Source of the DNA: Anadara kagoshimensis
Taxonomy: Eukaryota > Mollusca > Bivalvia > Arcoida > Arcidae
Length of the DNA stretch: 64,000 nucleotides
NCBI GenBank assembly: GCA_021292105.1
Contig: CM037861.1
Location: 48,994,634-49,058,633, forward strand
Direction of reading: 5' to 3'
The position numbers and the translations under genes were made by a program. The first letter of the stretch is position 1. Every line of letters starts with the position of its first letter. This document shows, one piece after another, positions 47,301 through 50,300 of this stretch. The notes below the pieces were generated by a model that had not been told where the DNA came from, searched no databases, and saw only the letters and a program-made list of their open reading frames with translations.

Positions 47301-50300
47301 ATTCATTCATTCATTTTCTCATTCATTCATCCACCCATTCCTTTATTTCTTTATTTTTTTACTTATTTATTTATTTATATACAGTATTTGACCTACCCTG
47401 AGTTAGTGAAGTATACTACATCAAGTCCTGTTGGCATTGTGTCAGCCAGTCTTTTAGCCAGTAGTACAAGGTTATCATGTAGATACCTATTGTTGGTATT
47501 CAGAATCTTCATCTGTTGATAACCAGCTTCCACAACATCTGGGTGACAATGTCCAACTACAAGAAATTATAATATTTGTTTGAAAGTACTGCCAGTAGCT
47601 GGTTTCTTTAACAAAGCTCAACAACATTGATCTGCATTCTGCAGAATAAACATGGTACAGTAGTAGACTAAGTGTAAAGATTGCAACAAAAAGAACCAAA
47701 TACCTCTAAGCATTGAATTTAAATGGCCACTGTGCATAAAATAAAAAGTCATTATTTGCAAAAGTGTGCAGAGCATCATTCAGGTTAGTTCTTACTGACC
47801 AAAATGGAAATCAGATTGACTGAAAATAATTAAATTTCTGATAAGAAAGGGAACGTTTAATATCACTTTGACAACATAATTACACAGTCAAACTTGCCTA
47901 AAAGGTCATCTTTATATAGTATTGTATAAGGTTCACCTGCCTTTAAAGGTCGGTAAAAGGTAATTGCAATTGCTCTTTATTCATGTTATTTTATCTTCTA
48001 TATAAGGACCACCTGCCCATAGAGGCCACTTTTACTCGTTCCCTTAGGTGACCTTTATAGACTGGTTCAACTGTATCAAGTCAAACATAAATGTTTTTAT
48101 ACAGTGGTACATTTACTGCACCAAACCTCACTAGAAATTTATCATATTTTTTTCAAAACATTTCACCAAAATTCATCAAAGAAAGCGCTGAAAGAAATAC
48201 ATTTGTACAAATTAAAAAAACCAATACTGCCATGGGCAGATTTATAACTCTTAAAACTGCTTGTGCAGTAATATAACAGTAACTTGTCGGTACATAATGG
48301 TAACTAATGTATTATGACAATCATATGTACAAGTTAAAAGGAAAGTGACATAAAATGATAAAAGACGATGACAAAAATGATGCTAAAAATAATTTAAAGA
48401 TTTTTTTTGTTTGTGACAATTTAAAGAAATGTAGAAAACAAATGATGGGGGTTACAGAGTAAAAATTATGATGATATCTGCCTCTTACAAATATTTCTAA
48501 TTAAGTGTTATATGAACTGGTACTGTATGTCCTTGTACACTATATGCCATAATGGTCACATCAGGGTAGCCTAGCGTGATCCGGCTGACACCAGCACCAC
48601 AGTGTGAAGATTAAAATGTGCCCATATAAGCGGGGTCAAATAATATGCATCTTGTTAAGTGTTATGTTGACATATTTTTGTTAGAACATCATGACCACCA
48701 TTTTCTCAATGCCTGGGTGGGCTAACCCCTAACCTTAATATTGTGAAATCATTCATTTTTATGTTTCATTGTTTTTGTGAATATCGTGACTAATAAATTT
48801 ATATGTCAACTAAATATATATTACAAGAAAACCTTGAGCGAAAAACAATAAACAACAAATTTACCAACTAACCTTTCAAAACAATAACTTTTCTTAGAAC
48901 CATAAAAATTGGGAAACCATAAAAATTAATGGTTTTACAAAAGTTTAACATAATTCACTTACCATGACAAACATTATTTATACAATCTAAGAACTTACCA
49001 TGACAAACATTATTTATACAGTCTAATTCACTTACCATGACAAACATTATTTATACAGTCTAATTCACTTACCATGACAAACATTATTTATACAGTCTAA
49101 TTCACTTACCATGACAAACATTATTTATACAGTCTAATTCACTTACCATGACAAACATTATTTATACAGTCTAATTCACTTACCATGACAAACATTATTT
49201 ATACAGTCTAAGAACTTACCATGACAAATATTATTTATACAGTCTAATTCACTTACCACGACAAACATTATTTATACAGTCTAATTCACTTACCATGACA
49301 AACATTATTTATACAGTCTAATTCACTTACCATGACAAACATTATTTATACAGTCTAAGAACTTATTGCCAGTCTCATCAAACATATACTGTCCTGATGC
49401 TTTTACAATCTTTAATGGATCTGATGAGAAAAACAGTTTACAGGACTCTCTGAAATAAACAGTAATAATTCAACTGTTAAGTATTTGGTGATTGTTACAA
49501 GATCAGGTTGGAGTGGGGTAATGATGTTTAATGCCTCAGTCAAGATTCTTTCACTTATATTGTGGCCAGTTCACGGATGTTTGACATTGCAATTAGCAAA
49601 GGAACTGATAAACTTCGTCCAGCAAATTGATAAACTTTCTAACTCTAGGGTGGGGTTTGGAATCAAGGAGATGAGAGTCACTGCATGCTTAGACCACAAA
49701 GCCACTGAGGTTCCTAATTGTTTGTAATGCTCTGCAATTAAAGTACATCTCTGTTTTTAATCTGCTATCTGCAAAAACGCTTTTCCTTTTTAGGAAAATG
49801 GGATGGTGGGTCATAGTGCATACCATGCTTACACATCATGGCACCTCTACCAGCCTGGGTTTAAAATATCCAACCCAGGCTTATCTTAATGCCAGAAAGT
49901 TTTTCATGTAAGCTTTCCCACAGACAAATTACAAATTATTCAAAAACTCATGCACCAGTCAATATGAATAAGTGCTTAGAATAAGTTACCTTGCCACTTG
50001 TTGTAATGTGACATTTGGAATGGAATTAGCCGACCTGGGCTGGGTAACTCGAAGGTCTCTTAACAGTTACGAACACTTAATGCCTATATAACACAAAGAA
50101 GTTAAGTGTTTGTAACTGCTAAGATAGCGTCGAGTTACCCAGTCCTGGATTTTATTTTGTATTTGCCAAAGCCTGTACCATTTGGGTAATCATATATTCT
50201 ATGTTTCCATTCCTGATAGCCAAAATCACTATTGGCTACTTACTTATGAGAAAATCTTTGAAAAAATAACCTATTTTAGCAAATTTGTGAAAAATGCTTT

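Follow-up and report, generated by a model that had tools for sequence, protein, structure and literature searches.

A 64,000-nucleotide stretch of the Anadara kagoshimensis assembly GCA_021292105.1 (contig CM037861.1, positions 48,994,634 to 49,058,633; this whole stretch is referred to as the window, with positions counted from its first base) carries a gene for ETNPPL (ethanolamine-phosphate phospho-lyase) on its minus strand. The end of exon 2 of this gene (49331..49449), together with the 5' splice site (donor) that follows it, is repeated head to tail at the start of intron 2 (47557..49330), giving a row of eleven near-identical donors at a single exon. The array is a minisatellite whose repeated unit contains a splice donor; in this assembly it is real.

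The parent of the array is formed by the last 36 nt of exon 2 (49331-49366) and its donor, and ten intronic copies of this exon end and donor (48963..49330, minus strand, 368 bp) extend as far as position 48963. On the minus strand, the GT starts of the eleven donors lie at 49330, 49293, 49256, 49219, 49183, 49146, 49109, 49072, 49035, 48998, and 48962, with donor-to-donor spacings of 37 bases in eight of the ten intervals and 36 bases in the other two (unit order outward from the exon: 37, 37, 37, 36, 37, 37, 37, 37, 37, and 36 bp). All 11 copies, counting the exon's own, are of minisatellite size and end in G|GTAAGT, and the authentic exon 2 donor of a gene with an intact coding frame lies inside the array. 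Tandem Repeats Finder (TRF) places the array at 48951-49358 (period 37, 11.1 copies, 95% matches, 1% indels) and also returns rows for it whose periods correspond to four units (147) and six units (221). A 25-base probe made of the exon end and GTAAGT matched 11 times in the window (9 exact matches and 2 with one mismatch), compared with a mean of 0 matches in 100 dinucleotide shuffles with up to three mismatches allowed. A preliminary description of this DNA had claimed eleven tandem, near-identical donors with ten intronic copies of 36 or 37 bp, and the donor listing, the TRF result, and the probe counts against shuffles all bear this out.

Only 3 of 374 bases in the core of the unit vary over the 11 copies. 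The eight 37-bp units start with GTAAGTGAATTAGAC and the two 36-bp units with GTAAGTTCTTAGA; the latter two (49184..49219 and 48963..48998, minus strand, the second with one substitution, TTAGATTG) open with GTAAGTTC where the others have GTAAGTGA, and they hold no TGA at that place. Single-copy intron sequence (GTAAGTGAATTATGTTAAAC) is found only beyond donor 11 (48957..48962, minus strand), which is presumed to be the ancestral intron start. By eye, each unit contains a TTAG ending 12 to 13 nt past the donor start, with no pyrimidine tract, and mini-introns or micro-exons within the array were rejected on the ground that no such tract precedes the TTAG of the units. A TATA-like string, TATAAATA, is present in the units (48963-49366, minus strand) and is part of the C-I-N-N codons.

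The exons of the gene were located by tblastn with a human ETNPPL query, and their boundaries were then placed at GT/AG sites. The tblastn matches fall in order along the minus strand, and the joined frame is open over 11 exons with GT/AG sites (496 codons plus a stop), the whole coding gene spanning 35050..60258. Besides exon 2 (119 nt; acceptor TTTATTTCAG|AGAG, end CATG) and intron 2 (1,774 nt, with the array at its 5' end), the joined frame comprises, all on the minus strand, exon 1 (60258-60206), exon 3 (47556-47397, 160 nt), exon 4 (46730-46656), exon 5 (45849-45750), exon 6 (45134-44926), exon 7 (44363-44269), exon 8 (39415-39291), exon 9 (36912-36758), exon 10 (36080-35991), and exon 11 (35359-35050). 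The joined protein matches Pfam Aminotran_3 (265.3 bits, residues 30-435), and its closest solved structure is 6tor_A (E = 3.1e-171), which we take to be the human ETNPPL structure, followed by 5g4i_A (E = 1.7e-87); the translation of exon 2, extended by three residues from the following exon, also matches 6tor_A (E = 3.5e-17). The predicted enzyme is a full-length class III aminotransferase whose nearest solved relative is ETNPPL. This complete reconstruction confirms that the parent exon is ETNPPL exon 2 with its last base at 49331, as had been proposed. Since the frame is open through 11 exons, the gene shows no visible sign of decay although it carries the array, and a pseudogene was ruled out (11/11 exons open with GT/AG sites).

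All 11 donors were joined to exon 3 in silico. Donor 1 (GTAAGT, 49325..49330, minus strand) is the only one that leaves the frame open, in agreement with the earlier claim, and it yields an exon 2 of 119 nt and a protein of 496 residues. The ten distal donors extend exon 2 to between 156 and 487 nt, and every one of them gives an identical 59-codon frame that ends in CINNVCHGK and then meets a stop. With 3 of these 10 donors the added bases are divisible by three, but this brings no rescue because the stop is met right where the first intronic unit begins. The further claim that retained intron puts a TGA directly after the exon and truncates the product thus holds for 10 of 10 distal donors, with the refinement that the two 36-bp units lack a TGA there; the products of distal donors still stop because the first intronic unit has already supplied a TGA. 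Nine exon junctions lie 3' of the early stop. A stop upstream of exon junctions leads to nonsense-mediated decay, which would therefore be expected for the distal-donor mRNAs. Skipping of exon 3 would also break the frame.

Tegillarca granosa supplies the best protein match (88% identity in the alignment, 78% in the BLASTP row), and the other named BLASTP matches among those listed, down to the 18th, are from bivalves or limpets. The residues encoded at the end of exon 2, L-D-C-I-N-N-V-C-H, are the same in all 16 aligned proteins (13 from named molluscs, 2 others, and the window protein). Among the 120 proteins listed of 7,997 scored, the INNV motif occurs once in 116 and is absent from 4; none of the 120 has a double INNV, i.e., an expanded protein at the exon 2 end, and insertion of a protein repeat in the listed homologues was rejected on this basis. 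Two of the 116 depart from the common pattern at this place: Q replaces H in P0031, and the Tegillarca granosa model P0001 (KUTeg_003851) diverges after CH. This model starts within exon 2 and reads GK after CH, followed by SEATDL, which corresponds to exon 4; it may reflect a real splice variant, with a donor four bases downstream (GTAA kept after exon 2) and skipping of exon 3, or it may be a poor gene prediction. A query with the 59-residue truncated product returned seven short proteins (one from an insect, two from birds, and four others), none of them from a bivalve by name. Six of the seven read CINNVAH-G (HGK in five) and diverge afterwards, as would be expected if distant animals had their donor at this codon too but no second copy, while P0125 reads HVT; no second copy of the exon end was found in any of the seven.

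Predicted pairing with the 5' end of U1 is -9.9 kcal/mol in 9 of the 11 donors of the array and -9.1 kcal/mol in the two that then read TTC. Eight of the nine other ETNPPL donors are weaker than -9.9 kcal/mol, and the donor of exon 9 is stronger (-11.3 kcal/mol). The predicted accessibility of the nine-base donor site ranges from 0.0006 to 0.062, with donor 1 ranking sixth of 11. Donor 1 differs by position: it is made first in transcription, and it completes the 119-nt exon.

Donor minisatellites as a kind are already known from two human genes, ABCA7 and IFI6. According to passages of the ABCA7 study, intron 18 of that gene contains a GC-rich variable number tandem repeat (VNTR) with 25-bp units in about 12 to 427 copies, the first two bases of which are the exon 18 donor (PMC5954066). 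Retention of one unit shifts the frame, giving a transcript that stops early, and accounts for 2 ± 1% of steady-state transcripts, independently of array length; skipping of exon 19, the largest alternative class, increases with array length across alleles from about 300 to 9,700 bp and amounts to 45 ± 10% in BA10 (PMC5954066, same passages). Longer arrays are also described there as going along with lower expression, with decay not being the explanation (PMC5954066). The clam array resembles the ABCA7 VNTR in being a tandem repeat at the start of an intron that includes the exon's own donor and whose units offer donors, but it differs in having AT-rich units of 36 or 37 bp that hold about 25 to 31 bases of coding exon. 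Splicing and length effects have been measured in ABCA7, whereas the clam array is described here from its sequence.

The units of the human IFI6 (6-16) minisatellite are 12 bp long, so that additional ones leave the frame intact and lengthen the protein; the clam array is unlike IFI6 in that every extra clam unit leads to a stop. The two are alike in that downstream repeat units carry donors. In IFI6, the subject of an article by Turri et al. from 1995, two such units act as donors and give rise to three mRNAs, with a predominant form of 130 residues (passages of PMC4526556).

In a potato RdRp gene, tandem duplication across a splice boundary is described as having made a new spliced intron (PMC4974935). 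As in the clam array, duplication across an exon-intron boundary copied splice signals there; in the clam, however, the copied signals are donors, and inspection by eye reveals no usable acceptor. Tandem donors of the GYNGYN type, a few bases apart (PMC1779574), are also neighboring, competing donors but have very short spacing, in contrast to the clam array with its spacing of 36 or 37 bases, eleven sites, and copied exon flanks. Tandem repeats occur in the first intron of an earthworm metallothionein gene, for which the passages in question describe no donor array (PMC12783039), and a snail gene with tandem donors is apparently not a case of this kind of array (PMC3376122). No invertebrate donor minisatellite was found in the open-license literature, in searches that did not name molluscs.

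We consider it probable that the clam array is a near-neutral, young minisatellite in an intact ETNPPL gene, with a dominant first donor and a minor, decay-prone leak, and that it is not a switch. In the pre-mRNA, the copies would act as extra 5' splice sites of near-equal intrinsic strength. Donor 1, transcribed first and completing the normal 119-nt exon, would most likely carry most of the splicing, and a minor share would go to donor 2, perhaps also to donor 3, giving mRNAs with the early TGA that would undergo nonsense-mediated decay or yield a 59-residue fragment. The array would be tolerated for this reason, and it would have no selected role. First-donor dominance is inferred here by analogy, since ABCA7 and IFI6 lean toward such a reading. 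The preliminary description had left the choice between a neutral oddity, tolerated because the first donor wins, and a length-variable switch on enzyme output; its anatomy and coding outcome stand, the two human genes favor its neutral option, and it overlooked another route known from ABCA7, in which the downstream exon is skipped and expression falls as the array lengthens.

Several points weigh against dominance of the first donor. Nothing in the site itself forces its use: given near-equal U1 pairing and the middling accessibility of donor 1, site quality does not choose. A weak point of the comparison with IFI6 is that it takes the predominant 130-residue form to be the first-donor product. 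In ABCA7, cycloheximide substantially raised the early-stop transcripts, and in 90% of the BA10 brain cases the canonical transcript was outweighed by the sum of the alternative ones (PMC5954066); the low share of one-unit retention was measured after decay and thus understates the use of donor 2. DOK7 prefers the intron-proximal of two competing donors, according to passages of PMC5585400, and a rule of that type would here favor the last donor and give mostly nonsense mRNA. ABCA7 and IFI6 were weighed above DOK7 because they have arrays of like layout.

It is also conceivable, but rather unlikely in our view, that the array is a length-variable brake, in which more donors give a larger unproductive share, through nonsense mRNA or exon 3 skipping, and copy number sets the dose of ETNPPL. 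The ten extra donors, all pairing well with U1 and all unproductive, would suit such a brake, and so would the frame shift caused by skipping the 160 nt of exon 3 and the joining of exon 2 to exon 4 in the Tegillarca granosa model, which may be a prediction error. Longer ABCA7 arrays are associated both with reduced expression and with more frequent skipping of the exon that follows, yet retention in ABCA7 was unchanged by length and decay showed no length effect (PMC5954066), and most of the alleles over which skipping rose greatly exceed the 368 bp of the clam array. The related idea of the array as a natural ruler of splice-site choice, with copy number varying between clams and determining, by way of distal donors or of exon 3 skipping, how much of the ETNPPL mRNA is productive, seems to us unlikely.

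Near-identical short units are generally hard to assemble, and the assembler may have added or over-counted repeats. The two types of unit do not follow one another in a simple order and there are three private substitutions, which is unlike simple stutter, and the window contains no N bases, although the exact copy number may still be wrong; an assembly artifact therefore appears improbable. The layout, in which 10 of 10 distal donors meet the same stop two codons past the exon, is that of a decay switch and could suggest a selected poison-exon device, with a regulated choice between donor 1 and the distal donors turning the enzyme off by tissue or state. This stop, however, follows directly from the intron sequence GTAAGTGA as a by-product, the few substitutions give no sign of age, and the seven short relatives lack a second copy, making such a device very improbable. 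We give hardly any credence to a role of the array as DNA, in which the TATA-like TATAAATA visible in the units would provide internal promoters or a binding array, because the same string encodes C-I-N-N, invariant in the 16 aligned proteins, and hence is there by descent.

With regard to the origin of the near-neutral minisatellite that we favor, single tandem duplications of a one-unit version reproduce both junction types. At the 37-bp junction, TTA is common to the intron (GAATTA) and the exon (TTCTTAG), leaving a breakpoint ambiguity of 3 bp; at the 36-bp junction, TAAGT is common to the exon (AATAAGTTC) and the donor (GGTAAGTGA), with an ambiguity of 5 bp. A 56-bp duplication was also considered; it holds the 37-bp junction string for 2 of 6 breakpoint pairs, but its spacing does not fit. 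At least two kinds of duplication event probably built the array, and the 36-bp units would be a re-copy beginning inside the exon. The very small number of varying core bases points to an array that is young or has been kept alike by exchange. As judged from these junctions, tandem duplication of the exon 2/intron 2 boundary through short homologies would have given rise to a young minisatellite. TRF returned 33 rows for the window, including overlapping ones, three of which are the donor array; as these rows include arrays of 44-bp units, with about 40 copies, that lie outside the gene, tandem duplication is frequent in this stretch.

Elsewhere in the window, a large minisatellite with 44-bp units lies past the 3' end of the ETNPPL coding region (28275-30098; 4.7 and 35.8 copies in two TRF rows). 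Intron 1 of ETNPPL holds further tandem repeats at 51515-51912 (periods 95-101) and 53106-53169 (period 32), as well as retrotransposon frames at 54600-58263 on the plus strand, antisense to the gene (protease, reverse transcriptase, RNase H, and integrase, with gag below the cutoff), which we take to be Ty3/Gypsy-like. A 338-aa frame at 5317-6333 on the plus strand scores 31.9 bits for COR-B against a Pfam cutoff of 27 bits, and no single stretch of it passes alone. Rfam at the gathering score gave 0 matches, 0 tRNAs were found, and a search for the exact 25-base unit in viral contigs gave 0 matches, which is unsurprising for DNA of an animal.

Engineered pairs are the usual system for studying how the spliceosome chooses among equal 5' splice sites. 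The clam array, which is uncommon and may be the first donor minisatellite of an invertebrate, is a natural test of choice among near-identical splice sites: with eleven such donors at one exon and near-equal flanks, read counts for each junction would isolate the effect of position almost completely. The array would likewise test what a donor minisatellite costs a conserved metabolic gene.
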